Assembly (NCBI RefSeq): GCF_015354405.1
Contig: NZ_JADKYP010000012.1
Location: 1 to 64,000 of the forward strand
DNA: 64,000 nt
Source: Nocardia sp. BSTN01
GTDB lineage: Bacteria > Actinomycetota > Actinomycetes > Mycobacteriales > Mycobacteriaceae
Direction of reading: 5' to 3'
Shown: piece by piece, positions 38,289 to 64,000 of the stretch
How positions within the stretch are numbered: the stretch's first letter is position 1
Layout: every line of letters starts with the position of its first letter
The notes under the pieces: model-generated
The model's input: the letters and a program-made list of their open reading frames with translations, nothing else
Told to the model about the DNA's origin: nothing
The model's database searches: none
Program-made: the position numbers and the translations under genes

Positions 38289-38474
38289 GCGCTCGTCGGG
38301 CACTCCGGCGCTGATCCATGAGCGCGGCTTTTCGACGACATCCCTGGTAGGTACGACCACCAGTGATCGGTCAACGACCGTCCCGTCGAGGAGGACGTTG
38401 CGTATGAGATCGTCCACATCGTCGAAGCGAATTGCGGTGACGGCAGGGACCGGTGGCAGGGGCCGGTCGGTCAT
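38187..38474 (-). CDS. Hypothetical protein coupled to cobalt transporter gene
   Basis: 95 residues. ATG 38474 overlaps the NhlF stop (ATGA), and the first ~60 codons have good codon bias (IRFDDVDDLIRNVLLDGTVV). The last ~34 codons run antisense through the 3' end of the regulator gene. That suggests the gene was cut at the island edge and now ends in foreign sequence. Family not recognised. Confidence 0.4.
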   Translation of the reverse strand: MTDRPLPPVPAVTAIRFDDVDDLIRNVLLDGTVVDRSLVVVPTRDVVEKPRSWISAGVPDERSVGGDSEFLRAQHLQHGEFLVVLGTRSSGENEQ

Positions 38475-46571: not shown

Positions 46572-46769
46572 CTGCCTACCTTCACTCTTCGGGAGGATGT
46601 ATGACACAGACGCTATTGCGCTGCCCAAGGCGCCGTAAGTTCCACTTTGCGTGCAAGTGAAGGTGCCAGTCGACCGCGCAGGTTACGGACCATCCGGTGA
46701 CGTTATCGAAATGGTTGCGCCAGGACGAAATCGACCACGGACTACGTCCAGCACCGGTTCCGGTGGCAC

Positions 46770-47534
46770 CTACGGGTCTGCGCGGGTCCCTGGTTGTCGA
46801 ACATCGGTCGTCACAAGCTCCAAGTAGGAGCGAGTCAGGGCCGGGTCGGTGATGAACGAGAAGTGTCCGCCACAATAGGTGCGTAATCGAAATTCTGCAC
46901 TGGTGTGGCACTTCCACATCGGCAGGTTTCCGAGATCGACTTCCGGGTCGGTGGTGCCGGAGATGACGGTCAGCGGGCAGTGGACGGTGTCATCGGCCGC
47001 GGCGCGGTAGCCTTCGACCAGCCGGTAGTCGCTTCGGATGACCGGGAGCAGCAGGCGCCGCAACGATGGTTGCGAAAGGGCTTGCGCGGTACGGGAATCG
47101 AATCGCCCGAGATGTCGGGCGAGATCGCTGTCGGAGGCGTGGTGCCAGCTTCCGGCAGCACGGGCCGGCGGTGCGTCGGCCCCGCTGACCACCAATTGCG
47201 AGATGGTGCGGCCGGACCGCTCCACGTCCCGGGCGGCCTCGAAGGCGATGTAGCCGCCCATCGAATGGCCGAGTAGCACAACGGGTCCCGCGTCGATCAG
47301 CGGCCTGATAGCCGCGGCGCAGTCTCGGGCGAGATCCGTGAGATACGGCGGGGCGGCGACACCACCGAGTGCGTCCCGACCGGGATAGGTGATGCCGTAC
47401 ATGGCGATGCCGGCCGGCAGTGAGCGCGCCAGCGGGGAGAAATAGCGCGGACTTCCACCGGCGTGCGGAAATACGATGACGGTGCGCCGGGGACGGATGA
47501 CCGGCCCGGCCAGATCCTGGATCAGCACGGTCAT
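46770..47534 (-). CDS. Type II thioesterase
   Basis: 254 residues. VFPHAGGSPRYFSPLARSLP, nucleophile GHSMGGYIAFE, Asp in ISGTTDPEVD and His in GGHFSFITD: a standard editing thioesterase that clears mis-primed carrier proteins. ATGA overlap with the imide reductase gene; last gene of the thiazoline NRPS operon. Confidence 0.95.
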   Translation of the reverse strand: MTVLIQDLAGPVIRPRRTVIVFPHAGGSPRYFSPLARSLPAGIAMYGITYPGRDALGGVAAPPYLTDLARDCAAAIRPLIDAGPVVLLGHSMGGYIAFEAARDVERSGRTISQLVVSGADAPPARAAGSWHHASDSDLARHLGRFDSRTAQALSQPSLRRLLLPVIRSDYRLVEGYRAAADDTVHCPLTVISGTTDPEVDLGNLPMWKCHTSAEFRLRTYCGGHFSFITDPALTRSYLELVTTDVRQPGTRADP

Positions 47535-48556
47535 GACGCGGTGAATCCCATCGCGGTGAGTGATGGCATGTCCAGAGGTGCGAACAGGGTAGGCGGTCCG
47601 ATGGCGGAGGTGACCAGCGTCCACAGTTCGGTTGCGCGGATGAACCGCTGTGACATCGGGTTTCGCCCGGTGTGTACGGCATGGACGAAGGCTGTCGCGG
47701 CGTGCCGGACCGCCTCTGGCCACAGGTCTCGGTAGATCTGCGAAACGGTCGGCTCGAACGGCCGGCCCACCACTTCGCTGACGACGTGGTCCGCGCTCGT
47801 GTGGTGTCGTCGCTGTCGCCACACCGTCGACCCATGAGTGTGGGTCAGTGTCAATTCTCCGGCATCGGTTCCGATGGTGATCTCGTGCGACAAGCGCATG
47901 TAGCTGTCGGGATCTTCCGCGCAGAGTGTGTTGTCGATCAGAAGGTCGACCGGCACATCGTCGAGTGTCAGACGCACCTGGGCGAATGGTGTCTTCCGTT
48001 GTGCCGGTAGCGCATCGACGTGTGCGGGAACCAGGCGGGGGATGATCTCGGCCAGCATGGTGAACAGTGGGTAGGCGACCTGGACCGCGCAGCGCGCGTG
48101 CGCGTAGCGGATCGGCGTCAGGCGTGAAAGGCGTTGCGCGAGCCGAATATATTGGCGCGCGGGCTCTGTGGATCCGTAGAAGTCGTTGACCGCGTAGTGA
48201 GCGCCGTGCTGTGCCGCCGCCTTCGACAGTTCGAGTATCTCGCGAGTGTGTACGGGCTGCTCCTGTAGGACGTGGATTCCGCGTTCGAGGAGCCTGGCAC
48301 TGATCGCGCTGCCCGTTCCGCCGACGATTCCGGACCGGACCACGACGACGGCCATACCGACTTCGGGTAGGTCGTCGAGGTCGGTGAACAGTGGTACGCC
48401 CAGGCGGGCAGCCAGTTCTGTCGAACGCGCGCTGCCCGTCGCGACCAGCGCCGCCAACCGCATCGGAGATTCGGGCGCTGCCAGAGCCTCGGCGTAGACC
48501 GCTCCGAAGGTGGAGCCGACGACGATCGCATCCGGCTGGTCGTGGTGGTCCATCAC
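47531..48556 (-). CDS. Thiazolinyl imide reductase (Irp3/PchG/YbtU family)
   Basis: 341 residues. Gfo/Idh/MocA-like fold in the specific thiazoline-reductase pattern: IVVGSTFGAVYAEAL, LAALVATGSARSTELAARLGVP, VVVRSGIVGGTGSAI, GIHVLQEQPVH. It reduces a carrier-bound thiazoline to thiazolidine with NADPH, as in yersiniabactin and pyochelin assembly. Start GTG 48556 or ATG 48553; either overlaps the upstream stop. Confidence 0.9.
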   Translation of the reverse strand: MMDHHDQPDAIVVGSTFGAVYAEALAAPESPMRLAALVATGSARSTELAARLGVPLFTDLDDLPEVGMAVVVVRSGIVGGTGSAISARLLERGIHVLQEQPVHTREILELSKAAAQHGAHYAVNDFYGSTEPARQYIRLAQRLSRLTPIRYAHARCAVQVAYPLFTMLAEIIPRLVPAHVDALPAQRKTPFAQVRLTLDDVPVDLLIDNTLCAEDPDSYMRLSHEITIGTDAGELTLTHTHGSTVWRQRRHHTSADHVVSEVVGRPFEPTVSQIYRDLWPEAVRHAATAFVHAVHTGRNPMSQRFIRATELWTLVTSAIGPPTLFAPLDMPSLTAMGFTAS

Positions 48557-49674
48557 AGCAGCCCTTGTTCGTAGCTGTCATGACGCTCGGCTTGCTCCGT
48601 AGTCGAGTCGGCGATGTGTACGCGCGCGGTGGCCGACAGCTGCGGATCCTCCACCAGCGCTATGGACGAATCGAGCGTGGCCAGCCGGTGTATGCCCGCG
48701 GGCAGCGAGTGCGCGTGGGTCGCCGCCCACGCCGTGGTCGCGCCGGTCACCGCATAGCTGTCCCTCGCCCGCAGAAGGAAACTCGATGTACGGCCGTCGC
48801 GTCGAGCCCGGACGAGAAGAGCGAAATACTGTTCTCGGCCGAAGAGATCGGCGGTAGCAGCCGCGCACAGCCGGTCGATTTCGGCGGCGGTGGTCGGAGC
48901 CTGGCCGGTAGCGCCGTAGTAGCTCTGTATCAGTCGTTCGGTTCGGTCGCCATCGATCATGTTCATCCATTCGATATCGGCAGCACCGATGTGTTCACCG
49001 GCGGCGGCCGTCTCGGCATCGAGGTGTATTCGGCCACGTGCCGACGGTGGAAACACGCCGGGCGGCGGTGGCGATGCATCCGTGGGCCGCATCCGGACCG
49101 GAACTCCGGCTCGTCGAACCACCGGGCCTGCGTGTGCCATGGTGAGGCCGGCCAGATAGTCGGCCGCGGCGGCCCGAGTGAGCGGCTGCAGACCACCGCA
49201 CCAGGCCACGATGCTGTCGGCTCGACCGCCGAGGCGCTGTGCGAGCAGGCGCACGGCCAACTCGGAGATGCCCGGCTGTACACCTGTTTGCACGACCGCG
49301 ACACCGTCTGCGGGCCGGCATCGGTTGAGCCGGTCGATCGTGTCGCGGTCCAGTCCCGGATCGATGTAGACGGCACCGCACATCATGACGATGGCGGCGA
49401 CGGACTTGCTGTGGTGGTGTGATGGTCCGGCGCAGTTCACCACGACGTCCGCGTGCAGGGCCAATTCGACGAGTGTGACTCCGTCGTGTGCGAGTGCGTC
49501 GAAATCGATTGTCTCGCAACAGCAGACGACGGGGAGCGAGGCGCAGAGTTCCCGTAACCGCCGGGGGTTCCGGCCTGCCACGGTGAGCGCGACATTCGGA
49601 TCGGCGGCAAGGATGCCGAGGCAGGTCCGGCCGGTGGCGCCGCCGGCTCCCAGCAGCAGGATTCTCGTCTTCAT
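48553..49674 (-). CDS. Saccharopine-dehydrogenase-like NAD(P) oxidoreductase
   Basis: 373 residues. LLLGAGGATGRTCLGILA Rossmann start, DVVVNCAGPSHHHSK, PGLDRDT and GVQPGISELAVRLLA as in saccharopine-dehydrogenase-like reductases. Its place between the NRPS and the imide reductase suggests a second redox tailoring step, but the substrate is not deducible. ATGA overlap with the NRPS gene. Confidence 0.85.
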   Translation of the reverse strand: MKTRILLLGAGGATGRTCLGILAADPNVALTVAGRNPRRLRELCASLPVVCCCETIDFDALAHDGVTLVELALHADVVVNCAGPSHHHSKSVAAIVMMCGAVYIDPGLDRDTIDRLNRCRPADGVAVVQTGVQPGISELAVRLLAQRLGGRADSIVAWCGGLQPLTRAAAADYLAGLTMAHAGPVVRRAGVPVRMRPTDASPPPPGVFPPSARGRIHLDAETAAAGEHIGAADIEWMNMIDGDRTERLIQSYYGATGQAPTTAAEIDRLCAAATADLFGREQYFALLVRARRDGRTSSFLLRARDSYAVTGATTAWAATHAHSLPAGIHRLATLDSSIALVEDPQLSATARVHIADSTTEQAERHDSYEQGLL

Positions 49675-52600
49675 CGGCCGGGACTTTCGCGCCATGATGT
49701 GGCGAGCCGGTGTGCCAGCGCCGCCGCATGCGGGTTGAGGAGGCAGTCGAAGTGGTTGCCCTCGATATCGACGACGGTGAGCCTGCCCAGGCAGTGGTCG
49801 CGCCAGAAGTCGGTCATATCGTCTCGCAGCCGTGGCAGGAAGTGGAGGTTGCCATGTTGGCGAAGAAAACAGATGTCGCCCAGGTACGGTGCGTAGTCCG
49901 CGGTGGCGACTGCCCGCAGGCTGTGGGTGAAGATGGACCGCAGTTCCACGAGGGATTCGGGGGTCCAGTCCTTCCCCAGCACACCCGAACGGCTGAGAAC
50001 ACGCATCCGCTGTGTGCCCGGCTGCGGTCCGGCGGCGAGGGCCCGGCCGAGCCGGGGATCCACCGAGCGCAGCGCCCCGGACGGAATGATGTCGCCGCAC
50101 TGCGCGCGGGTGCGGAGGAAAGCGTCGCAGAACTCCCGGTCGGGCACCGTGATCCCGAGGTCTGCCACGTCCGCGCCCATGATCTGAGCGAAGCAGTAGT
50201 CGAGCAGGTCGTCGTCGTGGATCTCGACGGGAACGCGGTAGGAGCTGATGACGGTCACACCGCCCACGGCGACCGCCGATTCCTGCAGATACCTGGCGAT
50301 CTCGACGGCCAGCAGTCCGCCCATACAGTATCCGAGCAGGTGAACGCGTGCCGGTCGCAGGTCTCGGATGGCCTGGCCGTATCTGGACGCGAGCGTAGCG
50401 ACCAATCGGCCGGGGGCGATCTCGGAGTAGCCGTCGCCAGGGACACGGCACAAGCCGTAGAGGTCCGGGATCGCGGAATACGCAGACAGTTCGGCGATCA
50501 GATCGGTGTACGGTGCCAATCCGCCGCTGCCGTCGTGAACCAGTACCACGATGGGACGATGCGGTTCGGGTTCGGCATCGGGTCCGCCGAGACGGACCAG
50601 CGGTGACGGCGCCAGGGTATGCCCTCGCACCGCGGTGCCGGCGCCGAGGATCGCCCGTTCGGCGCCGGCCACTGTCGGGTCGACGGTGAGTTCGCGCAAC
50701 AGTTCGTCCCAGAGGCATTCGGCCGCTTCGGGGATATCGCGTCGGATTCGGCCGATGGCCTGGGCCAGCAGCAGTGAATCTCCGCCCAGGGCGAAGAAGT
50801 CCGACCGGGGCGAAAGACCATGCGAATCACCGAGTTCGAGGATATCCGCCCACACGGCGGCGATCCGTGTCTGCAGTGCGCTCATGACGCCGCGGGGTTC
50901 GGCGGTATCGGAATCGGCGCGGGCCCGGGTGACGCGCTGCAGCTCGACCCGGATCCGCTTCCGGTCGACTTTTCCGTTGTCGGTCAGCGGGAGTGACGGC
51001 ACGATGGTCACGTGCTGTGGAATCATGTAGGACGGCAGGACATCGGTGGCCTGTTCGAGGAGCCGGGACGGCCGCAGTGCCGCGGTCGGCGCGGATGTCG
51101 GGCACCAGAAGGCATGCTGGCCCAGGCGTTCCAGGACATGTCCGTCAGGTGGCATGATCTGCGGGGGTTCGAAGGGGCTCGCCGATAGCACCTCCTTCCA
51201 CTGATCCAGTGTGAGGAACGGGGAATCACCGCTGCCGCGCACATCGGTGAAATCGGTGAGGCCGTCCTTGAACTCCATGGAGATCATCAACGCCGGATTC
51301 GGCGCGGTGGAGTCGATGAATGCCAGTACCCCACCAGGGGCGAGCAAGCGCTTCAGCACGACCAGGCGCGCGGGAATGTCGTCGGCATTGTGCAGCACGT
51401 TGGCGCAGACGACGATATCGAACGCCGAGGTCTCGAATCCCTGGTCGGCCGGGTCGAGATTCAGGTCGAACAGCCGATATTCGGCGATGTCGCCGCCGAA
51501 TGTCTCACGGGCATGGTTGAGGAAGAACGGTGAGATATCGGTGAAGGTGTAGTGCACATTCCGGTGCGGCAGTGCGGCCAGGATATCCGTGGTGGTTCCT
51601 CCCACGCCGGCGCCCACTTCGAGGATCCGCAGTGGCCGCGTCTCATCGAAAACTTCCGCGTATGAGCGGATCTGGGCGCTGATGACGGAGTTGAGATAGC
51701 GACTGACGAGGTTGTCGCGGTAGGCGCCGAGTGCGATGTCGAGTTGCCCCTCCGGGAACAGCAGCGCGAGCGGGTCGGCCGTACCGGTGAGTAGTCCGGG
51801 CAATGTCGACATGCATTGCCCTACATAGTGGATGAGCTGGTCACCGTACTCGATGGCACGAGCGAGTTCGCAGACTTTCTCCCACTCCTCGGCGCACTCC
51901 TCGATCGTGGGGTGCTCGTGCAGCAGTAGCGTGCCCTCCCGGCCGGTCATCCATCCTCGGTTCGTGAGGGTGTGCACCCACCTGCGCAACAACGGGCGGT
52001 GCTCGGTCGCTGTGCCGAGTGCCGCGGCGATCTCGTCGAAGGGGCGCGCACGCCCTGGCGGAAGCGCTGGGGCCAGTGTCGCGGCCATACTCCGCAGTGC
52101 GGTATCGGTTGCGGCGGTGACGAATCGGGCGACCGCGACATCGTCGAGGTTCGCGCTGTGGGTCCGGTGGATGTCGCACGCGGCGGCGCGGGCGGACAGC
52201 TCGGCGGCGGCACGGTGGCGCAACTCGTCCTCCGGTGCCGCGGCGGGAGCGACGGCGACCGCCAGCGTCTGATGGGGACGGTCGCCGAGGGTGCAGGCCA
52301 CGGCCGACGAAACACCCGGGATGGCGTCGAAGGCCGATTCGATATCGGCCAGTTCGATCCGGTGCCCGCGAATCTTGACCTGGTTGTCGCGGCGGCCGAT
52401 CAGCTCGATGACGCCGGCTTCATCGGTGCGCCCGAAGTCGCCCGTGCGGTAGAGACGTTCCCCGGATCCGGGATGGATGGCGAAGGCAGCCGAGGTCAGG
52501 TCCTCGTCACCCAGATACCCTGTCGCCACACTCATTCCACCGATGAAGATTTCGCCGATCTGCCACGGTGCGGCCGGTTCGCCCCGATGGTTGAGTACAT

Positions 52601-55154
52601 GCACGCTCTGGTTCGGAAGTGCCGTGCCGTAGGGAATGCTGCGGTCGTAGCGGGGTTCGTCGATGCGGTGCCGGATCGACCAGATTCCGGCCTCCGTGGC
52701 GCCGCCCAGGCTCCATGTCGTCGCTTGCGGTGCGGCGTCGGCGATCTCGGCCGGTTGTGCGGTAGGAATCCAGTCACCGGACAGCAGTATCCGGCGCAGC
52801 CCGGACAATGCCTCCCGTTCCCCGGTGAGCCGCCGCTGATCGAGGAGGAGTTGTAACTGCGCGGGGACGGAATTCCACACGGTGACGCGGTGTTTCGCGA
52901 TGTCTTCGAGCCAGGCGTCGGGGCGGGGCCGATCGGTGCTATCGGGAAACGCCAGGCACCCGCCCGCGCCGAGGATTCCGAAGATGTTGTACACCGACAG
53001 GTCGAAGGTGTGCTGCGACACCGCGAGGACGGTGTCATCGGCTCCGATCGCGCACATCGCGTTGATGCTGTCGATGGTGTTGACCACTGCCTCATGAGCC
53101 ATGACCACGCCTTTGGGCACGCCGGTCGTACCCGAGGTGAAGATCACGTAGGCGGCCTCGCTCGCGGTGGTGCGAGCAGGAGCCGCACTGTCGTGCGCCG
53201 TGTCCGGTCGCCATGACTCGGGGCGCTCGAGTATCCGGGCGATCGGGCCGGCGGGTTCGATCCGGACCGCGGGGTCGCACTGTTCGAGGATCCGGTTCAC
53301 CCGAGCCTGCGGCCAGCGGACATCCAACGGGATATAGGTCGCTCCGGCGATCAGGACGCCGAGAAGAGCGGCGACCTGCTGTGGCCCGTTGCCGAGCCGG
53401 ACCGTGACATGGTCACCGTCGGCGATACCACGCCCGCGTAGTTCGGCGGCGACCTGCTCGGCCGCCGACACCAGTTGCCCATAGGTGACCGCGACATCGC
53501 CCTGCCGGATGGCGACGGCGTTCGGCGCGCGGTTCGCCTGCTCGAGCAGTGCCGAGTGCAGAAGCCGATCGCCGCGGCCGGCCGGTGCCGGAGTCGGCGG
53601 GGGAGAGACCGGCGGGAGCAGCGGTCGATCCCACGCCGAACCGTCGGCGCACAAGTCGCCGATCGCTGCGGCGAATTCGCCGAACGCGCGGTCGAGCACG
53701 AGGTCGGGGACGGTCCCGGCCCGGCTGTCCCAGTGGATGTCGACACCGTCGCGGGCGTCCATCACCTGGCAGTCCAGCAGGACCTGCGGTGTCTGGCTGA
53801 GGCCGCGACCGGTGATCGGCCGCAGCAGGGGCGGACGGGACTCGTGCTCCTGGTGGGCGCGGTCGGCACCGACGGTGGAGGTGAAGACGACCGGCGACTG
53901 CTGTCCGCGGTTGTCGTCGCGGCGCGCCAACTCTCGCAGTATCTCCACACCCGATACGCCGGGGTGGTCGATGTCGTCGAACAGGCGCGCGCTGGTGCGG
54001 GCCACCGTCGCCGAGAACGGTTCCGGCGCACTGACATCCATTTCGAGGGCGAGGGTGCCGGTGAAGTCGCCGGCGATCTGGTCCACGACGTCGGTGAACG
54101 GGCGCCGGTTCATCGTCGTGAGCGTGAGCAGGAAATGGTCGCTGTCTCCGTAACGTCCGATCACTCGAGCGAAGGCGGTCAGCAACGCGGCGGTGGGGGT
54201 GAGGCCTCGAGCACGGGCGTGACCGGTGAATTGTTCCCATTCGCGCGCGCGGATGTCGAATGCCCGCCGCCTGAAGTGCGGCGGTGCGGTGTGCGCGTGG
54301 GGGAGCAGCGGCAGATTCAACGGTGCCGGAAGATCGTCCAGGCGGGCGTCCCAATAGCCGCGATCGCGTTCGAGTTCGGCGCGGCCGGCGGCGCTGCGGC
54401 GGTGGCGGGCCACATTCAGGAGATAGTCGCGGAAGGTGAATGCGGGACGGGGCAATTCGGTCGACGGGTCGCGCAGGGCGCGCTCGAAATCGCGCATGAC
54501 GAGCGCGATACTCGCGAAGTCCGCGATGAGCAGGTCGACGGAGAAGTGTACGAGGGTATCCGCCGGTCCGATGGTGACGACGAGGTCGAACATCGGACCG
54601 GTCCCGGGAGAATAATCGCGTTCGGCGAGCGTCTCGGTGATCCGCGTGCGCCGCGCCGCGATCGCGGCCGTCGTGTCCTCGATGTGGACGGTCAGCCCGG
54701 TCGGTGCCCCGACGGTGCCGCGATCCAGTTCGATGCGCTGATACCCCTCCGGATGGACGACGCAGCGCAGCATGTCGTGCCGACCCAGCACCGCGTACCA
54801 GGCGCGGCGGAAATCGTCCGGACACAGTGCGCGCGGGGACTCCACGTCGGCCACCGAGAACTCCGCATATCCGTGGCAGCCGATGCCACCCCACTCGAAA
54901 GCGGTAGTGCGGCCGAGGAGATAGGAGGCCTGGACATCGGTCAGGGGGAACGGTTGATCGTGATTGCCGGGATCGGTGATAGCAGCGCTCTCGGTGGTCA
55001 GTGCCGCTATCACCTCGGGCTTGAGTGCCCGCAGTCTCGCCTTCATCTCGCTGTCGACGGCTCCCGACGGTGCGCTGTAGCGCAGATCGGGACCGTCGAT
55101 CCATAGGTCCGCCCCGAGGGCGCGCAGGTGGGAAATGAGTTCGGTGGCGTTCAC
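49671..55154 (-). CDS. PchF-like NRPS: docking-Cy-A(Cys)-MT-PCP-TE
   Basis: 1827 residues. TubC-type docking helix pair (1-52); heterocyclization domain with DLLIADFAS (DxxxxDxxS, 54510-54536); adenylation domain whose specificity residues read D-L-Y-N-L-S-L-I-W, the textbook cysteine code; methyltransferase inside the A domain (LEVGAGVGG, 51579-51623); A10 LTDNGKVDRK; PCP with GGDS; thioesterase with GYCMGG, where Cys (codon 50325-50327) replaces the usual Ser. The order equals pyochelin synthetase PchF: it should add, cyclize and methylate the last Cys and release the chain. GTG start 55154 follows GAGGAGG and overlaps the upstream stop (GTGA). Confidence 0.95.
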   Translation of the reverse strand: MNATELISHLRALGADLWIDGPDLRYSAPSGAVDSEMKARLRALKPEVIAALTTESAAITDPGNHDQPFPLTDVQASYLLGRTTAFEWGGIGCHGYAEFSVADVESPRALCPDDFRRAWYAVLGRHDMLRCVVHPEGYQRIELDRGTVGAPTGLTVHIEDTTAAIAARRTRITETLAERDYSPGTGPMFDLVVTIGPADTLVHFSVDLLIADFASIALVMRDFERALRDPSTELPRPAFTFRDYLLNVARHRRSAAGRAELERDRGYWDARLDDLPAPLNLPLLPHAHTAPPHFRRRAFDIRAREWEQFTGHARARGLTPTAALLTAFARVIGRYGDSDHFLLTLTTMNRRPFTDVVDQIAGDFTGTLALEMDVSAPEPFSATVARTSARLFDDIDHPGVSGVEILRELARRDDNRGQQSPVVFTSTVGADRAHQEHESRPPLLRPITGRGLSQTPQVLLDCQVMDARDGVDIHWDSRAGTVPDLVLDRAFGEFAAAIGDLCADGSAWDRPLLPPVSPPPTPAPAGRGDRLLHSALLEQANRAPNAVAIRQGDVAVTYGQLVSAAEQVAAELRGRGIADGDHVTVRLGNGPQQVAALLGVLIAGATYIPLDVRWPQARVNRILEQCDPAVRIEPAGPIARILERPESWRPDTAHDSAAPARTTASEAAYVIFTSGTTGVPKGVVMAHEAVVNTIDSINAMCAIGADDTVLAVSQHTFDLSVYNIFGILGAGGCLAFPDSTDRPRPDAWLEDIAKHRVTVWNSVPAQLQLLLDQRRLTGEREALSGLRRILLSGDWIPTAQPAEIADAAPQATTWSLGGATEAGIWSIRHRIDEPRYDRSIPYGTALPNQSVHVLNHRGEPAAPWQIGEIFIGGMSVATGYLGDEDLTSAAFAIHPGSGERLYRTGDFGRTDEAGVIELIGRRDNQVKIRGHRIELADIESAFDAIPGVSSAVACTLGDRPHQTLAVAVAPAAAPEDELRHRAAAELSARAAACDIHRTHSANLDDVAVARFVTAATDTALRSMAATLAPALPPGRARPFDEIAAALGTATEHRPLLRRWVHTLTNRGWMTGREGTLLLHEHPTIEECAEEWEKVCELARAIEYGDQLIHYVGQCMSTLPGLLTGTADPLALLFPEGQLDIALGAYRDNLVSRYLNSVISAQIRSYAEVFDETRPLRILEVGAGVGGTTTDILAALPHRNVHYTFTDISPFFLNHARETFGGDIAEYRLFDLNLDPADQGFETSAFDIVVCANVLHNADDIPARLVVLKRLLAPGGVLAFIDSTAPNPALMISMEFKDGLTDFTDVRGSGDSPFLTLDQWKEVLSASPFEPPQIMPPDGHVLERLGQHAFWCPTSAPTAALRPSRLLEQATDVLPSYMIPQHVTIVPSLPLTDNGKVDRKRIRVELQRVTRARADSDTAEPRGVMSALQTRIAAVWADILELGDSHGLSPRSDFFALGGDSLLLAQAIGRIRRDIPEAAECLWDELLRELTVDPTVAGAERAILGAGTAVRGHTLAPSPLVRLGGPDAEPEPHRPIVVLVHDGSGGLAPYTDLIAELSAYSAIPDLYGLCRVPGDGYSEIAPGRLVATLASRYGQAIRDLRPARVHLLGYCMGGLLAVEIARYLQESAVAVGGVTVISSYRVPVEIHDDDLLDYCFAQIMGADVADLGITVPDREFCDAFLRTRAQCGDIIPSGALRSVDPRLGRALAAGPQPGTQRMRVLSRSGVLGKDWTPESLVELRSIFTHSLRAVATADYAPYLGDICFLRQHGNLHFLPRLRDDMTDFWRDHCLGRLTVVDIEGNHFDCLLNPHAAALAHRLATSWRESPGR

Positions 55155-58100
55155 AGCACGCCCTCCTCGAGATTGCCGGCGCTGCGCCGCGCCGTCGGGT
55201 GGGTGGTTGCCTGCGCTACCGCGAGGGCGAAATCCGCGATCACCGGATGTGCCAGCAACAGTCGCAGCGTGGCGCCGGGGCCCGCCTCGCGTCGGACACG
55301 TTCGACAACCGCTGTCGCGGCAACCGAATCGCCGCCGATCTGGAAGAAGTTCGCGTCGGGCGCGACGGACGGGCGATGCAGTACCGCCGCGCAGATGCCG
55401 CGGATCCGGTCGGTGAGCGTATCGGGCCGGTCGGTGTCGGTGGCGGCGGACTCGATGGTCGCCGACAACCGAGCGAGATATCGCACCGCGGTGTCTTCGG
55501 GGATCAGCTGGGCGACGTGGTCCCAGGACAACTGCAGTGCGCCGCCGTCCTCCCAGACCTGGAAGTCGAGCAGGGTTTGCGGCGTCTGGGAAACCGCGAA
55601 AGTCTGGTCACCGAAGCCGAATCCAGCGGTGGTGTCGATGGTCCGCAGCCCGAGTCCGCTGGTGAACACCACGGGGAACATCGCCGCGGCGGGATCGCCG
55701 TGATGGCCGAGTATTTGTTTCTGCACCCAGACTCCGTCGGCCGCCCGATGTGCCAGGTCGGAGATCAGCTGACGCTGAATCGCCTGTGCCGCATCCCATA
55801 TTCCGGTGCCGGGCTCGACATGACATTCCAGCAGCAGCAGGGAGGTGAAGTCGCCGATGACGTTGTCGATACCGGGTTCGCCGGTGGCACGGTCGAACAT
55901 CGTGACATTCAGGCAGAAGTCGGGGGTATCGGACCAGGCCGCGATCACCCGTGCGTAGCACGCCAGCAGCAGGGCCGCCGGCGTCACCGCGCGGCTGCGG
56001 CACCGGGTCGTTACCTCGGCCCAGGTATCGCGCGCGATACGGGCTCGGGCCCGTTCGAAACGCGGTGTGGACACGGCGGCCATGGCGTCGGGTGTCACCA
56101 GTGCGGGAGCGGATGGCAGATGGTGCAGTCGCCGCAGCCAATATTGCTGTGCCGCAGTGAGTTCGCCATCGCTCGCGGCGTCGGGGTCAGGGGCTGTGTT
56201 GCGCACGTGATCGGCGAAGGTCGTCGTGATCGGCGGTAGTTCCTCGATCGGTCTACCCCGGTAGAGGTGGTCGAGTTCGGCCAGGACGGTCATCATGCTG
56301 GCGCCGTCCAGGAGCATGTTGTCCATGCTTATTCCGATGAGGGCTCGGGACCGGTCGCTGTCGAGGTACTGCACCGCGATATCGAGACCGCCCCGCTCGC
56401 TCAGGTCGATCACCTGGTCACGCATGCCGGCACGGACATCGTCGAGCACGCGCACCACAGGCTCGATCGGGTCGTCGTGGACTGTCGCGACGGTGCCGCT
56501 CACGGTGGTCCGGAGGCCGGGATGACGGCGGACGAGAGCGGTGGCGGCGGTCGTGAATCGAGATGAATCCAATGCGGTCGTGGCGAATTCGAAGTAACAG
56601 TGTGCCGCGACGCCGCTGAGCAGATACCCCGCCTGCCGGCCGATGGCATACGCGCGCTGTACCGATGTGAGTGGATAGGTGCGTGCGGGTGATGCCGGAC
56701 CGCGCGACTCGGGCCCTGGCGGTTCGCCCGGGAGCGGGGACATCCGGCCGATATGGTCGGCGAGTGCACTCAGTACCGGGTGATTGAACAGGTCCACCAT
56801 GGCCACCTGGCGGTATCCGAGTTCTCGCAGCCGGGTGTAGATCCGCGTGGCCTGCAGACTGTCGCCACCGAGCAGGAAGAAGTCGTCGCCCGGCTGCGGA
56901 CGGACGCCGAGATAGTGCTGCCACAGATCGGTCAGTATCGCCAGCTCCGGGTTGTCGGCCGGCGGTGCGCCCGCGGTGGGCTGGGCATGCTGCGGCCTCG
57001 GCTCGCCACCCCCGTCGGCGACAGGGTGCTGTGCGCGGTGGGCGAACAGCGTGACACCCGGTCCCGCCGCCGTCATCGTCGTGGGCGTCCATCCCCGGTC
57101 GTGCAGAAGATGCCACCACTGGTCGGCGGTGAGCGGCTGGGTGCCGAGCAGATCGGGATCGATCACCGCCGCACTGATCAGGGTCGCCGGGGTGTAGGAA
57201 CAGTGTTCGGTCAGCCACAGCCAGCCGTCGGCCCGCATCGGCACCTGGGACAGGAGCCGACCGCGGTCGTCCATCTGGTGGATCGAACCGCAGCATAGGA
57301 CTATGTCGAATGGCTCGGCCGACTCGATCTGGTCGGGGCCGATGTGCCGCACTCCCGTGATGTGGCGCTCCGCGGCGATGGCGCGCAGGACGGGATGGGG
57401 TTCGACAGCGACATAGTCCGCCACGACCGGATCCATCGCCGCCAGCAGCCGCTGTGCGGTGTGTCCGGTGCGACCGCCGATTTCGATGACGCGCAGCGGC
57501 CGGTCCTGCTCGCGGGCATGGTCGACGACGCGCTCGGCCAGCGTGTCGATGCTGCGCCGAACATGCGCGTCGCTGAGCAACAGCGATTCGGGAGCGAGCA
57601 GCGGATGAGCGAGGAGGGCATGGTATGACGCTGTGCCGGTGACGATTTCGGCCAGGAGGGCGCCGGCGGCAGCGGCGGAATCGGTGGGCGCCGTCCGCTG
57701 GTGACCGGCGACACGGCGCCACCGGGCCACCACCGGGGCATATCGAGCCGACACCGGTCGGTGGGAGTCGTGATCGAGCCGGTGCAGCGCCGCGGCGATG
57801 ACCAGCAGCGGCCAGTTCTCGTCCCGATCATGGTGTTCCACGGTGGCGGGCGTGGTCGCGGGCGACCGCAGGCGACAGCGCACAGCGCGCTCGAAATCAT
57901 CGAAGGCCGTGGCGGTTTCGGCTGCCCGTACGGCGCAGTCGGCGGTGTCCCAGCTGATTCTGATTCCCTCGTCGTAGTCCTCGACCTGACAGTCGAGAAG
58001 CACCCCGGGAGTTCTGGTGAGGGTGCGGACCAGGTTCAGCGAGAATTCGGCGGCACGGCGATTCGACAGCCCGAGGGTGCTGGTGAACACGACGGGATAA

Positions 58101-61100
58101 CCCGGCTGCCGTTCCCGCAGTTGCTGCTCGGCGATCTGGGCGGTGCCGTCGGTGGCGCTGGCCACGATGGCGTTGAGCCGGCGGTGCGTGTCCGCGACGG
58201 CCGCTTCCGATCCGGGCGATCGGTCGGCGTAGTCGGCTTCGCACAGATACGGCCGGGTGAAATTTCCCAGAACCTCGCAGTGGACCGGTGCGTAATCGGG
58301 TCGGTGCGCTCGGGGAATCGTCACCGCGAAACGAGGACCGCTCCCGTGTCGGTACAGCGTGTGGGTGAAGGCTTCCAGCACAACCGCGGTCGCCGTGACG
58401 TCGGCGGCCGTGGCCAGGCTGCGCAGACGGGTGGATTCCGCGGGGGTGAGGACGAAGCTGCGGCGGGTGAATGCTCCGACGGCAGTGCCGTCGGTCGTGG
58501 TGGCCGACCACGACGGCGGCAGGTGTGGTGGCGGTGGCGCCGGTGCCGCGGTGCGGGTTTCGGCGATCGCGGTGGTTGCGAAACGGCGGAAGACATCCGC
58601 CCGCGCGGCTATCCGGACGGGGCGTGGCGAACCATCGTAATCGGCCATGATCGCGGTGATCACAGTATCGAGGCTGCGTGCGTCCAATCCGAGGTAGTTG
58701 ATGAGCAATGCGATGTGCCGCGGCTCGGAATTCGTCGCATAGCACCGCAACAGAGGTCGCCGGTCCATCGGCATCGGGAGACCGGCGAGATGGTCGGTCA
58801 GCGAATCGGGGTCGTCGGGCACATCGCCGATCCGCTCGATCCGGACGGGCCAGGCGTTGGTGTCGACCGCCTGTGCCACATCGGTGTCGAGATGGCACCG
58901 CAACATATCGAACTCGCGCACTGCCGCTGTCAGTACGCCCTCCAAGCGGTTGATGTCGATGGGGACTGTGGTGGCCGCACCGAGGACGGCGACCAGGGCG
59001 GTCGGCGCCCGCGGGACGCCGCGCAGGCCGCCGGCCGCCACGACGTAGGCCTGCTGCAGCCGGGTCAGCGGGAAGGGGCCCGAGCCGACGGCATCATCCG
59101 GTGTTCTGGGATCTGCTGCGGCCGTGCGGAAGTCGTTGCCCATCACGCAGTGCGCGGCGAAATCTCGCAGGGTGGGCGACGTCAGTAGCAGTTCGACATC
59201 GGCCCCGAGCACGCCGCGGGCCGACAACACGCGGCAGACCTCGGTGGCGCGCAGGCTGTCGCCGCCGCTGTCGAAGAACTTCGAGTCGGTCCGCAGCGTC
59301 TGCGGTGCGACGCCGAGCGCCTGCGCCCATACCTCGCCGACGCACTGTTCCGTCGGCGAAATCCCTTCGGCGGGAAGAGATGACACGCCTTGTTCCAGGC
59401 TGCGCGCAGCCGCGCGGCGATCGACTTTGCCGTTGACGCTGTGTGGAATGGTCGCGGTCTGACGGAAAACCCTGGGCACCATGTATCCGGGCAGACGAGC
59501 GGCGACGTAGGTGCGGATCTCCTCGGTGTCGGACAGGCAACCTGCCGCGGTCACGAGCAGGCACCCCAGACGTGTTCGGTCGTGTATCGGCACCACCACC
59601 GCGTTCTCGATGGCGGGATGGGTGCGCAGGATCTGTTCGATTTCGCCGCATTCGATGCGGTGGCCGCGAATCTTCACCTGGGAGTCGGCCCGGCCGAGGA
59701 ACACCAGGACACCGTCGGGGAGGTAACAGCCCAGATCGCCGGTCTTGTACCAACGCCGGCCGGTGCGATCTTCGTGGAAGCGTTGCTGAGTCAGGTGCGG
59801 ATCGTTGTGGTAGCCCAGCGCTACCCCGGTGCCGCCGATCCACAGCTCGCCGGGCACGAGATCGGGCTGGTCGCGGCCGTCGGGCGCGACGACGCGATAG
59901 CACTGATTGGTGAGCGGACGGCCGTAGGGCACGGATGTCCAGTGCGGGTCGACATCGTCGACCCGGAATTCGTTGGACCAGATCGCTGCCTCGGTGGCAC
60001 CCCCCATCGCCACCAGTTGTGCGTCCGGGGAATGCGCCCGTAGCTTGGCCGGTAGGTTGAGTGGAATCCAGTCGCCGGACAACAGAACTCGGCGCAGAAC
60101 GGTCAGTTGTGGCGGCCGATGGGGGCCGCAGGCGGTGAGCAGCATCTCCAGCAGCGCCGGAACCGTATTCCACACGGTGATGTCGAAGGCGCGGATCAAC
60201 TCGCACCAGCGGAAGGCGTCGCGGCGGGTGTCATCGGCGATGGTCACAATCGTCGCGCCGACGCTGAGCGGCCCGAATATGTCGTAGACACTGAGATCGA
60301 AATCCAGGGAGGACAGGGCGATCAGGGCATCGCGACCGTCGATGTCATTGCGGCGGTTGACATCCACGATGGTGTTCAGCGCGGCGCTATGAGAGATCGC
60401 GACACCTTTGGGTTCACCGGTGGAGCCGGAGGTGTAGATGATGTACGCGGGCGCGGCGGGATCGACGCGAGTGGGTGGCCCCGGCAGGTGGCCGGGTGCG
60501 ATGTCGATGGAATGTCCGGTGACGCCGACGAGTGTGGTTGCGCCGCTGCAGAATTCGTCGTCGTGGACCAGTGCGCGCATACCGGATCGGCTGCTGATGC
60601 GTTCGAGCCGGTGCGGTGGCTGGTCGGTGGATATGGGCAGATAGGTGCAGCCGGCCATCAGGGTGGCGAGTACCGCGATGATCTGGCCGGGCCCCTTGGG
60701 AAGCCGGATACCGACGACGGCGCCCGGCTGATGATGCGCGCGAAGTTCGGACGCGAAAGCCCGTGCGTACCTGTCGAGTTCCCCATAGGTGAGGCAGGTG
60801 GGCTGCGCGGGGACGCACCAGGCCGGCAGGGCTGGTCGCTGCCGGTATTCGTCTGCCGACCAGCGCAGGGCCGGTCGGTCGGGTGCCGACGCGGCCGATT
60901 CGGTGAACGCGTCGTAGAGCAGACCTGCGGGAATCGGGCCGTCGGTGGCGTTCACGTCGGCCCGGGTGCGCCGGGTGTGTGGCGGTATGTCCACCGTCGC
61001 CGGCTCGTGCCAATCACAGGCCGACAGGGTCGACAACAGGTGCAGGTAGCTGTCGAACATGTCCTCCACGACACCGGCGGGAAAGCGGCCGGCGCGGAAG

Positions 61101-64000
61101 TCCCAGGACAGCTGGACCTCGGTACCGATCAGACAGCATTGGTTGTCGATCAGGGTCTGCGGGGTGGTGGAGCTGATGTGTCGCGCCGAGCCCAGGGTGG
61201 ACAGTGCCGCGGCGTCGATGACGGGGTGATCGGCTGCGTAGGTGAACACGAGGGGGGAGCGGCGCAGGGTGGTCTCGGTCCACCGGCCGACTCCCGAATC
61301 GAGGTCGGGCAGGTTCGCGCGGAAGGCCTGTTGCGTGTCCCGCATGTACTCGGCCCACGACCGGCCGGTCGGATCGGTGTTGTGATGCGTGTGCAGCGCG
61401 GTGAAGTCGCCGACGGTGTGCGCCGTCGCTGGTGTCCTGCCCGTTGTCGTGACGGTGACGGTGAATTGCGGCTCCGTGGACCACCGGTGCAGCACGAGTT
61501 CGTACGCTGCCAGCAGAATCACCGCGCGGGTCACTCCGACGGCCCGGCCGGCGGTGTCGAGCCCGCGCAGGACATCGTGTGACAGATGGGCGCTCAGTCG
61601 GCGAAAGTGTGGACCCGCCTCGGTCCGCAGTGGCAATTGGGGTGCGGAACCGGTGTCGGCGGACTGCCCGGCCGGGCGCGATGGTTCCGGAGCGGGTGGT
61701 TCGATCCGCAGGCCACCGGGGGCACCGGGCTGTTCGCCGCGATACAGGGCCGCCAGATCGGCGACCAGGATTCCGATTCCGGTCACATCGGCGATCGTCA
61801 TGTCGACGGCGAGATGAATGATCGTCGCTTCTCCGGAGCGGGTGAATTCGATGCGCCAGCAGTCGCCCGTGACAGGATCGAAGCGGTGGTCACGCAGTCG
61901 CTCACGAACTGCGCGCAGATGTGCTTCCCGGTCCGCATCTCCGGCCAGGTCGTGCACCGGCAGATCGACGGTGTTCGATGCCGGATCGATGATGCACTCG
62001 TCCGGGCCGGGGAACCGCGCGCGCAGCATGGGGTGTCGCCACACCAACTCTCGCAGCGCGTCATGCAGCCGGCTGGGGTCCACCCCTGAGCCCCGCAGCT
62101 CGAAATACGTCCGACAACCGACTCCGCCGAGCGGTTGCCGAGCGTCGCGGCCGATCCAGAACGCTCGTTGCAGAGCGGTAGTGCGCGTCGTGCCCGACTC
62201 GCCGCCGGTCAGCACGCGGACCGGAGTCGGTGCGGATGTGGTCCGGCAGCGTTCGATCAGGTCGTCCCATCGCCGAACGGTGGGTTCGGTATAGAGCGCG
62301 GCGAAGGTAGGAAAGCTGTCGCGTTCGGCGGCCCAGGACATGAGCTGTGCCGTCATCGCGGAGGTCCACCCGTAGCCCACCAGGTCGGCATCCACGTCCA
62401 GCTCATCGGGACGGACACCGAGCAGTGCCGCGACGAACCGTGCGGTATCGGATCGGCGAGGGTTCCCCACGGCCGCGGCGGCCGTCTCCCACAAGACCGG
62501 AAGGGAATTGCCGGACACGCGCGCGGCCACCTCGCGGCGCCTGATCTTTCCTGAGGTAGTCAGCGGGAGCGTCTTGGGTGGAACGAAGATGACGCGTTCG
62601 GGTGCGGTCCGATGCTCGGTGAGGATCCGCCGGTGCACCGCTCGGCCGATGTCGTCGAGAATGGCTTCCGGACCGGCTGTTTCGACAACCAGGACCCAGG
62701 ACTGGTCGCCGGATTCCGGCTGGACCGCACATGTGCCCGCCGGTGCGATCGCATCGTGCGCCGACTCCGCCGTGGTCTCGATGTCGTTGGGGAAGTGGTT
62801 CATTCCGCCGACGATGATCAGGTCCCGATATCGGCCGGTGATGTACAGCTCATCCCGCAGCCGGAATCCGGCATCGCCGGTGCGCAGGAACGGTCCGGCA
62901 CCCTCGTGGGTGTGCGCCCCGAACACCTGTGCGGTATCGGTTTCGCGCTGCCAGTACCCGATCGGCAGGCCGGGTCCGGCGATCCAGATCTCGCCGATCC
63001 GGCCGTCGGGGAGCGTGCGGCTGTTGTCGGGGTCGACGATCCGCACGTCCCAACCGAGGGTGGAGTTGCCGCAGCTGACCACAGTCCGAGCGGGGCGGCT
63101 GTCGTCGCGATCCACGGGCACCGCACGGCCACAGCGCAATTCGTCGGCATCGAAGCGCTGTTGATGCCATCGGCGCCGGACGGTGGTACCGCTGACAGCG
63201 AGGCCGGCCTCCGCGAGGCCGTACTGGGGGCACATAGCGGAATCTGCGAGGCCGGCCGGCGCGAAATGCTCGGTGAACCGGCGGACCGTATCCGCGCGTA
63301 CGGGTTCGGCGCCGTTGCTGGCGATGCGCAACGATCCGAGATCGAGGTTTTCGACGTCGTCGGGGTGGAACGCCGTGATCGACTGCCGGTAGCCGAAGTC
63401 GGGCCCGGCGATCCAGTTGCCGCGAACGTCGGAGACGGTGGCGAGCCAGATCCGCGGATCACGAACGAAGTCGTGCGGGGGGATCAAGGTCGCGCTACCA
63501 CCGGTGAGCAGCGGGACGAGCAGTCCCCAGAACAGGCCCATATCGTGGTACGGGGGAAGCCAGCTGACGGTGTGCATCGGCTCGGGCGCGTTCCAGATCG
63601 AACTCACCACGTCGACTTGCCGCAGGATCGAGGCATGAGTGTTGAGCACACCTTTCGGGCGGCCGGTGGAGCCGGACGAGTATTGGATGAAAGCGACCGC
63701 CTCCGGTGCCGCCGAGTCCCCGGCGCGCGGAGTCCGGTTGCCGTCGCCGTGTGCGCACTCCGGATCGTCGACGAGAACCGCTGGAAGTTCGTGCAGTACA
63801 GCGTTTTTGTCGACTGCTGCGGCAATCTGCGTGGTCGTGGCGACGGCAGCGGGCGCGCAGTCGGCGATGACGCCCTGTGCACGGGCGAGGTATCGCTGCG
63901 GGTCGTGGGCCGACGGCAGATAGACCGGGACCGGGATCGCCCCTACCTGGAGCGCGCCGAGGAAGGCCGCGATGAAATCTTCACCACCGGGAAGTGCCAG
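55151..64000 (-). CDS. FAAL-initiated thiazoline NRPS (5' end beyond window)
   Basis: 2949 residues in the window. Order: fatty-acyl-AMP ligase (64000-62520; GAIPVPVYLPS, IQYSSGSTGRPKG, WLPPYHDMGL, TTSGKIRRR); aryl-carrier-like domain (GYGWTSAM, near 62350); Cy1 (DMTIADVTG, 61777-61803); A domain, code D-L-Y-N-L-S-M-I-W, cysteine-like (about 60890-59400); PCP (GGDSLRA); Cy2 with degenerate NYLGLDARS (58673-58699); methyltransferase-like domain (VIEIGGRTG, 57464-57490); PCP (GGDSLQA); Cy3 with intact DNMLLDGAS (56297-56323); PCP (GGDSVAA). No TE; the chain passes to the PchF-like protein. One A domain must load several carriers, as HMWP2 does. The start acyl unit is unknown. Confidence 0.95.
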   Translation of the reverse strand: MALPGGEDFIAAFLGALQVGAIPVPVYLPSAHDPQRYLARAQGVIADCAPAAVATTTQIAAAVDKNAVLHELPAVLVDDPECAHGDGNRTPRAGDSAAPEAVAFIQYSSGSTGRPKGVLNTHASILRQVDVVSSIWNAPEPMHTVSWLPPYHDMGLFWGLLVPLLTGGSATLIPPHDFVRDPRIWLATVSDVRGNWIAGPDFGYRQSITAFHPDDVENLDLGSLRIASNGAEPVRADTVRRFTEHFAPAGLADSAMCPQYGLAEAGLAVSGTTVRRRWHQQRFDADELRCGRAVPVDRDDSRPARTVVSCGNSTLGWDVRIVDPDNSRTLPDGRIGEIWIAGPGLPIGYWQRETDTAQVFGAHTHEGAGPFLRTGDAGFRLRDELYITGRYRDLIIVGGMNHFPNDIETTAESAHDAIAPAGTCAVQPESGDQSWVLVVETAGPEAILDDIGRAVHRRILTEHRTAPERVIFVPPKTLPLTTSGKIRRREVAARVSGNSLPVLWETAAAAVGNPRRSDTARFVAALLGVRPDELDVDADLVGYGWTSAMTAQLMSWAAERDSFPTFAALYTEPTVRRWDDLIERCRTTSAPTPVRVLTGGESGTTRTTALQRAFWIGRDARQPLGGVGCRTYFELRGSGVDPSRLHDALRELVWRHPMLRARFPGPDECIIDPASNTVDLPVHDLAGDADREAHLRAVRERLRDHRFDPVTGDCWRIEFTRSGEATIIHLAVDMTIADVTGIGILVADLAALYRGEQPGAPGGLRIEPPAPEPSRPAGQSADTGSAPQLPLRTEAGPHFRRLSAHLSHDVLRGLDTAGRAVGVTRAVILLAAYELVLHRWSTEPQFTVTVTTTGRTPATAHTVGDFTALHTHHNTDPTGRSWAEYMRDTQQAFRANLPDLDSGVGRWTETTLRRSPLVFTYAADHPVIDAAALSTLGSARHISSTTPQTLIDNQCCLIGTEVQLSWDFRAGRFPAGVVEDMFDSYLHLLSTLSACDWHEPATVDIPPHTRRTRADVNATDGPIPAGLLYDAFTESAASAPDRPALRWSADEYRQRPALPAWCVPAQPTCLTYGELDRYARAFASELRAHHQPGAVVGIRLPKGPGQIIAVLATLMAGCTYLPISTDQPPHRLERISSRSGMRALVHDDEFCSGATTLVGVTGHSIDIAPGHLPGPPTRVDPAAPAYIIYTSGSTGEPKGVAISHSAALNTIVDVNRRNDIDGRDALIALSSLDFDLSVYDIFGPLSVGATIVTIADDTRRDAFRWCELIRAFDITVWNTVPALLEMLLTACGPHRPPQLTVLRRVLLSGDWIPLNLPAKLRAHSPDAQLVAMGGATEAAIWSNEFRVDDVDPHWTSVPYGRPLTNQCYRVVAPDGRDQPDLVPGELWIGGTGVALGYHNDPHLTQQRFHEDRTGRRWYKTGDLGCYLPDGVLVFLGRADSQVKIRGHRIECGEIEQILRTHPAIENAVVVPIHDRTRLGCLLVTAAGCLSDTEEIRTYVAARLPGYMVPRVFRQTATIPHSVNGKVDRRAAARSLEQGVSSLPAEGISPTEQCVGEVWAQALGVAPQTLRTDSKFFDSGGDSLRATEVCRVLSARGVLGADVELLLTSPTLRDFAAHCVMGNDFRTAAADPRTPDDAVGSGPFPLTRLQQAYVVAAGGLRGVPRAPTALVAVLGAATTVPIDINRLEGVLTAAVREFDMLRCHLDTDVAQAVDTNAWPVRIERIGDVPDDPDSLTDHLAGLPMPMDRRPLLRCYATNSEPRHIALLINYLGLDARSLDTVITAIMADYDGSPRPVRIAARADVFRRFATTAIAETRTAAPAPPPPHLPPSWSATTTDGTAVGAFTRRSFVLTPAESTRLRSLATAADVTATAVVLEAFTHTLYRHGSGPRFAVTIPRAHRPDYAPVHCEVLGNFTRPYLCEADYADRSPGSEAAVADTHRRLNAIVASATDGTAQIAEQQLRERQPGYPVVFTSTLGLSNRRAAEFSLNLVRTLTRTPGVLLDCQVEDYDEGIRISWDTADCAVRAAETATAFDDFERAVRCRLRSPATTPATVEHHDRDENWPLLVIAAALHRLDHDSHRPVSARYAPVVARWRRVAGHQRTAPTDSAAAAGALLAEIVTGTASYHALLAHPLLAPESLLLSDAHVRRSIDTLAERVVDHAREQDRPLRVIEIGGRTGHTAQRLLAAMDPVVADYVAVEPHPVLRAIAAERHITGVRHIGPDQIESAEPFDIVLCCGSIHQMDDRGRLLSQVPMRADGWLWLTEHCSYTPATLISAAVIDPDLLGTQPLTADQWWHLLHDRGWTPTTMTAAGPGVTLFAHRAQHPVADGGGEPRPQHAQPTAGAPPADNPELAILTDLWQHYLGVRPQPGDDFFLLGGDSLQATRIYTRLRELGYRQVAMVDLFNHPVLSALADHIGRMSPLPGEPPGPESRGPASPARTYPLTSVQRAYAIGRQAGYLLSGVAAHCYFEFATTALDSSRFTTAATALVRRHPGLRTTVSGTVATVHDDPIEPVVRVLDDVRAGMRDQVIDLSERGGLDIAVQYLDSDRSRALIGISMDNMLLDGASMMTVLAELDHLYRGRPIEELPPITTTFADHVRNTAPDPDAASDGELTAAQQYWLRRLHHLPSAPALVTPDAMAAVSTPRFERARARIARDTWAEVTTRCRSRAVTPAALLLACYARVIAAWSDTPDFCLNVTMFDRATGEPGIDNVIGDFTSLLLLECHVEPGTGIWDAAQAIQRQLISDLAHRAADGVWVQKQILGHHGDPAAAMFPVVFTSGLGLRTIDTTAGFGFGDQTFAVSQTPQTLLDFQVWEDGGALQLSWDHVAQLIPEDTAVRYLARLSATIESAATDTDRPDTLTDRIRGICAAVLHRPSVAPDANFFQIGGDSVAATAVVERVRREAGPGATLRLLLAHPVIADFALAVAQATTHPTARRSAGNLEEGVL

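Follow-up and report, generated by a model that had tools for sequence, protein, structure and literature searches.

What does a thiazoline-forming nonribosomal peptide synthetase (NRPS) line make, and to what end, when its loading domain resembles a fatty-acid-AMP ligase (FAAL)? This question is raised by an operon at the end of the 64,000-nucleotide stretch analysed here (the window, bases 1-64000 of the 146,596-base contig C24 in the 7.79-Mb genome of Nocardia sp. BSTN01, labelled G000). On balance we consider it probable that the operon encodes a FAAL-primed thiazolin(id)ine line of the yersiniabactin/pyochelin/coelibactin class, which would build up to four rings onto an acyl chain and would ancestrally have served zinc acquisition under Zur. 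The line consists of five minus-strand genes with four overlaps of exactly 4 bp (55151/55154, 49671/49674, 48553/48556 and 47531/47534). The window edge cuts the gene for NRPS1, the open reading frame (ORF) of which runs to 64306, with an ATG at 64219. The genes are listed below, with aryl carrier protein (ArCP), heterocyclization (Cy), adenylation (A), peptidyl carrier protein (PCP), methyltransferase (MT) and thioesterase (TE) domains.

55151..64000, continuing past the window to the ATG at 64219, minus strand: NRPS1, FAAL-ArCP-Cy1-A1(Cys)-PCP1-Cy2-MT1-PCP2-Cy3-PCP3
49671..55154, minus strand: NRPS2, docking-Cy4-A2(Cys) with MT2 inserted-PCP4-TE
48553-49674, minus strand: saccharopine-type reductase, SrbE-like (PF03435, 2.4e-8)
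47531-48556, minus strand: thiazolinyl imide reductase, Irp3/SrbI-like (TIGR01761, and YbtU/Irp3 structures at 1e-34)
46770-47534, minus strand: type II thioesterase (TEII) of 254 aa (PF00975, 7.1e-41), start placed by the 4-bp overlap

All elements named in an initial annotation of this DNA, including the chain of 4-bp overlaps, were recovered by Pfam, TIGR01761 and alignment.

The loading domain of NRPS1 has FAALs as its closest solved structures (2.9e-93), and FAAL and MbtM-type models match it with 199-349 bits (best 349.5). DHB_AMP_lig is absent from the best 25 of its 37 model matches, whereas a control, the aryl ligase of Nocardia genome G006, scores 639.9 with that model. The motif LPPYHDMG of the window, which reads LPLYHDMG in five congeners, contrasts with LPAAHNFP in the G006 aryl ligase. 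By these comparisons the loading domain is nearer to FAALs than to aryl or CoA ligases. One salicylate synthase over the cut-off and one dihydroxybenzoate (DHB)-type ligase (E <= 1e-80) were found in the genome, together on contig C181; a neighbour scan and genome profile searches placed no salicylate synthase or stand-alone aryl-acid ligase in the window's cluster. The initial annotation had left a choice between an acyl and an unusual aryl starter: the FAAL structures and models favour the former, and these same model scores and the location of the salicylate genes on C181 make the latter unlikely. An adjacent salicylate ligase and synthase with full synteny to a known cluster, which that annotation had named as evidence against itself, did not appear in the scanned neighbours or the genome searches. 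It is very improbable that the starter is not a fatty acid but an aryl or other acid which the cell makes elsewhere and the FAAL-like domain activates. The carrier does resemble an ArCP, and one of the weaker matches is to a benzoate-CoA ligase family model (95 bits), but the FAAL/MbtM-type scores, the ranking of DHB_AMP_lig, and both the score and the motif of the G006 control argue against it.

The domains of both NRPSs were delimited as follows (approximate limits, all on the minus strand).

62507..64000, continuing to about 64171: FAAL loading domain (structure and model matches as above)
62237..62476: divergent ArCP/acyl carrier protein (ACP)-like carrier, aligned to PchE, T-S conserved in 6/6
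60932..62206: Cy1; carrier plus Cy1 match PchE (4.5e-40), Irp2 (2.6e-28) and EpoB (3.7e-27)
59387..60916: A1, code D-L-Y-N-L-S-M-I-W-K
59162..59386: PCP1 (Pfam and congener alignment)
56762..59101: module without A domain, Cy2 57797-59101, MT1 57017-57766, PCP2 56762-56986
55217..56716: second module without A domain, Cy3 55457-56716, PCP3 55217-55441
NRPS2, N-terminal part: TubC docking 54990-55154, Cy4 53625-54959, A2(Cys) from 52245-53564
NRPS2, C-terminal part: MT2 51165-52094 inserted in A2, PCP4 50655-50909, TE 49695-50594

Pfam recognizes in NRPS1 AMP-binding (434.8 bits, two stretches), Condensation, PP-binding and AMP-binding_C domains, a DIP2-like AMP C-domain of FAAL type (PF23024, 1.1e-12) and, between Cy2 and PCP2, Methyltransf_23 (5.1e-8). 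The corresponding matches of NRPS2 are TubC_N docking (4.2e-11), Condensation, AMP-binding (3.9e-74), PP-binding and Thioesterase (1.7e-12), with Methyltransf_12 (1.3e-18) ahead of the C-terminal end of the A domain. The carrier after the FAAL received no Pfam call and was revealed by its alignment with PchE and by the attachment-site T-S, found in all six congeners (window included). The A-domain codes, DLYNLSMIWK for A1 and DLYNLSLIWK for A2, are taken by us to specify cysteine, in line with the Cys-type modules proposed initially. In all four Cy domains the six congeners retain T in VFT and D in TP[QG]xxxD, functional residues of Cy domains. The initial estimate of up to four rings is supported, albeit that the number of closed rings is less certain (see below). 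The nucleophile of the TE is a Cys (GYCMGG in the window, GYCMG in 6/6 congeners). Solved structures gave weak relatives alone for MT1 (CurJ, 0.0035) and one weak relative for the TE (0.0027). No polyketide synthase (PKS) domain was found in either protein with Pfam and NCBIfam.

From this anatomy we propose that the FAAL would convert a fatty acid to the acyl-AMP and load it onto the fused carrier, that A1 would load Cys on PCP1 and probably, in trans, also on PCP2 and PCP3 (in the modules without A domain), and that A2 would load PCP4. Each of Cy1-Cy4 would add and cyclise one Cys, so that the acyl chain would come to bear as many as four rings. The Irp3-like reductase, which scores 230.6 bits with the TIGR01761 thiazolinyl imide reductase model (cut-off 188.8), probably reduces ring 2, presumed to be methylated by MT1. 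The saccharopine-type reductase, present at the same place in Streptomyces and Azospirillum clusters, probably reduces the last ring, which MT2 would N-methylate, on the model of the sorangibactin line with its two reductases. Published systems are compared here from excerpts of the papers cited; sorangibactin is described there with two thiazolidines (PMC10127202), from which we infer by analogy that two-reductase lines end with two reduced rings. The Cys-type TE would free the chain either as an acid or by transfer to a small nucleophile. If the starter is a saturated C-n acid and the chain carries four rings, undergoes two reductions, gains two methyls and ends as a free acid, the expected core would be C(n+14)H(2n+20)N4O2S4.

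The closest kin of the line, missed in the initial annotation, are clusters of the coelibactin/sorangibactin type; its view of the line as a mix of HMWP2/HMWP1 and PchF elements stands. The sorangibactin (srb) cluster as described combines two NRPSs and a Cys-type TE with saccharopine-type and Irp3-like reductases and a TEII/hydrolase (PMC10127202), and by this description shares with the window NRPS2 with its Cys-type TE, both reductases and the TEII. Two coelibactin-like clusters on Streptomyces plasmids encode an NRPS2 with GYCLGG, a saccharopine-type reductase, a Gfo/Idh/MocA (thiazolinyl imide reductase-like) reductase, a cytochrome P450 and a TEII, and in addition a methyltransferase, an ATP-binding cassette (ABC) pair, a salicylate synthase and a stand-alone aryl ligase; NRPS2, both reductases and the TEII are common to them and the window. 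The saccharopine-type reductase is followed by the thiazolinyl imine reductase, as in coelibactin/sorangibactin-type clusters. Unlike these, the window has no salicylate synthase, stand-alone ligase or P450 with the line (no SrbH/CYP105N1-like P450 gene was found in the operon or the neighbours scanned). NRPS1 of the two Streptomyces clusters has the order ArCP-Cy-A-PCP-Cy-A-PCP, whereas that of the window has a fused FAAL, MT1, two modules without A domain and an extra Cy-PCP, i.e. Cy3-PCP3, which lacks a counterpart there. An early guess that SrbC carries an MT was rejected, as the Streptomyces relatives have a second A domain at that place. NRPS2 is 35-36% identical to four Streptomyces NRPS2 proteins, and its best identity in PLSDB is 37.5%; this best match (CP053317.1 36539-41904) is unannotated in a record labelled Salmonella enterica. 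In gene content and domain order the back half (NRPS2, both reductases, TEII) matches coelibactin/sorangibactin-type clusters, while the front half does not: the line resembles coelibactin-type thiazoline metallophores, yet departs from them in starter, P450 and NRPS1. The order docking-Cy-A-MT-PCP-TE with a Cys nucleophile, a coelibactin/sorangibactin feature that the window shares, is not specific to that type, since it also occurs in a pyochelin-like NRPS2.

With yersiniabactin the line shares Irp2 Cy and Irp3 among its closest solved structures, and HMWP2/HMWP1 likewise contain Cy modules without A domain and a Cy-MT-PCP unit. It differs in its FAAL start, two A domains, four Cy domains, second reductase and lack of a PKS domain; the salicylate start of yersiniabactin and pyochelin and the PKS module of yersiniabactin have no equivalent in the line. 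In the pyochelin-like cluster of Azospirillum lipoferum 4B, NRPS2 shares the domain order of the window's NRPS2 and has GYCLGG, and there is a saccharopine-type reductase that we presume to be PchK-like; the cluster differs by its aryl ligase and isochorismate genes and its short NRPS1, and no thiazolinyl imide reductase is annotated in that stretch. Massiliachelin and micacocidin come from FAAL-primed thiazoline siderophore lines with a thiazolinyl imide reductase, in which, as described, a PKS extends the acyl starter to an alkylsalicyl unit (PMC10291242), whereas in the window the FAAL carrier feeds Cy directly.

A coelibactin-like cluster was already known in this genus: the nine-gene cluster of N. 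cyriacigeorgica GUH-2, described in 2013, is syntenic with that of coelibactin except for the P450, and the excerpted description names no FAAL, extra module or Zur box (PMC3751702). Because two other N. cyriacigeorgica strains carry the FAAL line, the GUH-2 cluster may, by analogy, be the same line. The present analysis adds the nearest kin, places the true start of NRPS1, shows the line to be rare yet shared, and records zinc signals that occur in relatives but not in the window. Our searches of the Creative Commons-licensed PMC literature brought up no evident description of a FAAL-to-Cy thiazoline line in Nocardia or Mycobacterium.

Of 149 sampled Nocardia genomes, seven (that of the window among them) have the saccharopine-type reductase at E <= 1e-20; six of these (the window's and five others) have the FAAL line and one (G006) an aryl-type line. 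With three candidates scored per genome in the Cy-profile searches, an ArCP-Cy1 profile at E <= 1e-100 had matches in 6 genomes among 401 sampled from the family (2 of 31 genera) and in 2 among 396 sampled from the phylum, both Nocardia. A scan of 84,980 named species genomes with two peptide patterns gave 27 loci; as both patterns derive from the window's clade, more distant FAAL-Cy lines would be missed. Eleven of these loci have the same architecture and domain order, namely those of N. takedensis, N. arizonensis, N. cyriacigeorgica (2), N. paucivorans, M. gordonae (2), M. simulans, M. sp. 141, M. intermedium and a Rhodospirillaceae metagenome-assembled genome (MAG; L046, cut within the FAAL). 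In a tree of Cy4-A2 (16 rows, four outsiders) the 12 FAAL rows form one clade (100/100), within which the window groups with N. takedensis and N. arizonensis (99/99). Spread to Proteobacteria was considered on account of the MAG and rejected, as L046 nests in Mycobacterium; by this placement its contig is probably mis-binned. The methyltransferase gene beside the line of N. arizonensis (L041) is in two pieces, at about 5510 (+) and 7531 (-), as if split by inversion or assembly error.

Coelibactin has been listed as Zur-controlled (PMC6103462, PMC3430247, excerpts). The pattern TGANAATSATTNTCA, with at most one mismatch, occurs at 2-5 places per genome in all six Nocardia genomes searched, while the reversed pattern, used as control, gave none. 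In four of the six (G000, G138, G125 and G145) such places lie at L28/L33/S14/S18-type ribosomal operons with CobW genes (ten of their proteins were checked by Pfam), a listed kind of Zur target (PMC6103462); none of the three places in G034 is a ribosomal operon, and those of G018 were looked at in part. In N. cyriacigeorgica G145 the pattern has two exact places only, one preceding NRPS1 and the other 29 bp ahead of the ORF of the ABC pair; G018 has a single exact place, before the likely NRPS1 start, though within the longest ORF. A position weight matrix (PWM), for which the training sites lay away from the line, placed sites of at least 16 bits before NRPS1 in four of the ten named relatives with upstream sequence (L043, L044, L047 and L048), with 0-0.054 expected by chance per locus (from one simulated 400-kb sequence each); in L043, L044 and L047 an in-frame stop separates site and NRPS1. 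In M. simulans six sites were scored, and they precede an S14-type gene, the methyltransferase, a PPE gene and NRPS1. A single site in M. sp. 141 stands ahead of a CobW_C gene, and N. paucivorans has weak sites only (11.8 and 13.3, before NRPS1 and the ABC pair). N. arizonensis has none before NRPS1 and a 20.5-bit site before a FecCD permease gene about 8 kb away. The PWM scan found no Zur-type site before NRPS1 in M. gordonae (2) and M. intermedium, and none in N. takedensis. Of four mycobacterial loci scanned for PE or PPE genes, three have them next to the line (L042, L043 and L050, not L044); an ABC pair accompanies it in L042, L045 and L050. A zinc island of M. avium subsp. paratuberculosis (sid, mptABC) contains FurB-controlled, zinc-starvation-induced IrtAB-like ABC genes next to NRPS, methyltransferase, PPE and cobW genes (PMC4298942, excerpts); its SidA is described as an NRPS/thioester reductase. 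The Zur-type boxes and neighbours of some relatives suggest zinc rather than iron for the family, which strengthens for the family the initial label of a probable metallophore; the window's own copy is without box and ABC pair.

Several observations weigh against a FAAL-primed, four-ring zinc metallophore. The FAAL models score under their curated NCBIfam cut-offs, for which reason no acyl chain length is assigned. The first D of DxxxxDxxS in Cy2 is replaced by N in five of six congeners, and the S of this motif in Cy1 by T or A, so that the number of closed rings is uncertain. At the position of Irp3 His101, presumably catalytic, the thiazolinyl imide reductase of the window has Gln. The Cys-type TE was considered as proof of a homocysteine thiolactone end and rejected, since it is also present in a pyochelin-like NRPS2. 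No site of at least 16 bits precedes NRPS1 in six of the ten named relatives. In G145 and G018 two weaker sites close to the methyltransferase coincide in part with its start codon; they are therefore doubtful and were rejected as clean promoter boxes. In the window there is no Zur box before the synthase genes: the best PWM score in its 64 kb is 8.4 bits, against 14.5 in 52.6 kb of background from the same contig. Its genome contains no ortholog of the ABC genes, as the best ABC1 matches reach 43% (40% in N. takedensis, 34% in N. arizonensis), whereas the G145 ortholog reaches 73%.

A second Cy-domain NRPS line is present in the window's genome, on contig C144 at about 5361-17354 (L124/L125), with carrier-Cy-A, then Cy-PCP-Cy-PCP and a thioesterase-like end; a one-mismatch Zur-like site lies near its start, at 5701.

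The sequence beyond 64000, expected initially to hold the rest of the operon and transporters, supplied the start of NRPS1 and two genes divergent from the line, for a class I methyltransferase (64941-65684, plus strand) and a TetR regulator (65740-66321, plus strand), but no ABC ortholog was found in the genome. The TetR gene is common to the copies of the window, N. takedensis and N. arizonensis (43-45% identity). These three also share the 9-mer AGTAACTTA, 137-146 bp before the FAAL core (64317-64325 in the window's contig, upstream of NRPS1), which is absent from four other compared regions and is a candidate operator or promoter part; a longer pattern around it was no more frequent in a genome search than its reversed control. 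The simplest reading of these sequence features is that Zur control was lost and TetR control gained in this subclade. One inherited event would, however, explain all three cases.

Two other roles of the line have to be weighed against zinc acquisition. It is possible, though somewhat unlikely, that in the subclade the line no longer serves zinc uptake and makes a TetR-regulated, lipid-tailed polythiazoline acting as antibiotic, ionophore or signal. This would fit the well-supported subclade with its shared TetR gene and AGTAACTTA, the lack in all three copies of a 16-bit site before NRPS1 and of an ABC ortholog, and the presence in the window's genome of another Cy-NRPS line with a Zur-like site. 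It fits less well with the retention of all domains, both reductases and the TEII, with the site before the FecCD permease in N. arizonensis and with the lack of specificity of the longer AGTAACTTA pattern, and the part of TetR is predicted from sequence. An iron siderophore like yersiniabactin or pyochelin, in which a lipid tail replaces the phenol, is improbable. The enzyme class is the same and sorangibactin production increases under iron limitation (PMC10127202, excerpt), but with no salicylate genes beside the line there would be no phenolate for Fe(III), four relatives have Zur-type sites, and the best IdeR match in 11 upstream stretches is 12/19 (L040; others 9-11); an iron role deduced from enzyme class alone was rejected on this last ground. 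We therefore retain zinc acquisition under Zur as the most likely ancestral role, with the box lost and a TetR gene present in the window's subclade.

More tentatively, and with rather less than even confidence, we propose a separate class of lipid-tailed zinc metallophores, lipo-tetrathiazol(id)ines, in Nocardia and non-tuberculous mycobacteria, in which the FAAL feeds Cy directly and the phenol is gone, with ancestral Zur control, uptake of the IrtAB/energy-coupling factor (ECF) type, perhaps PE/PPE proteins in mycobacteria, and TetR rewiring for a new role in the window's subclade. If so, a lipid-tailed, phenol-free thiazoline metallophore is predicted from these organisms, and genome mining keyed to genes for salicylate, catechol or hydroxamate would meet none of them here. 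The close relatives offer a natural case of differing apparent Zur control of the same assembly line, which also bears on the unsolved structure of coelibactin and the role of the second, saccharopine-type reductase.

Near the line in the window are genes for a NicO-type nickel transporter (38471-39697) and a bacterial-like globin (46086-46628), neither of which has a match in the compared regions of six relatives. The aryl-type relative in G006 (L027, L038/L039) has an NRPS1 with three A domains, a DHB-type ligase, an ABC pair, a protein resembling, by eye, a flavin halogenase, and TGAAAATCATTTTCA upstream of NRPS1. In Corynebacterium, loci L053 (4787-12514) and L054 (5196-12796) each encode a FAAL-like ligase as a separate protein and, after it, a short NRPS with two Cy domains and a single A domain; the NRPS of L053 ends in a thioesterase. 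ECF- and ABC-type genes lie nearby, and the loci are perhaps a smaller acyl-thiazoline line.
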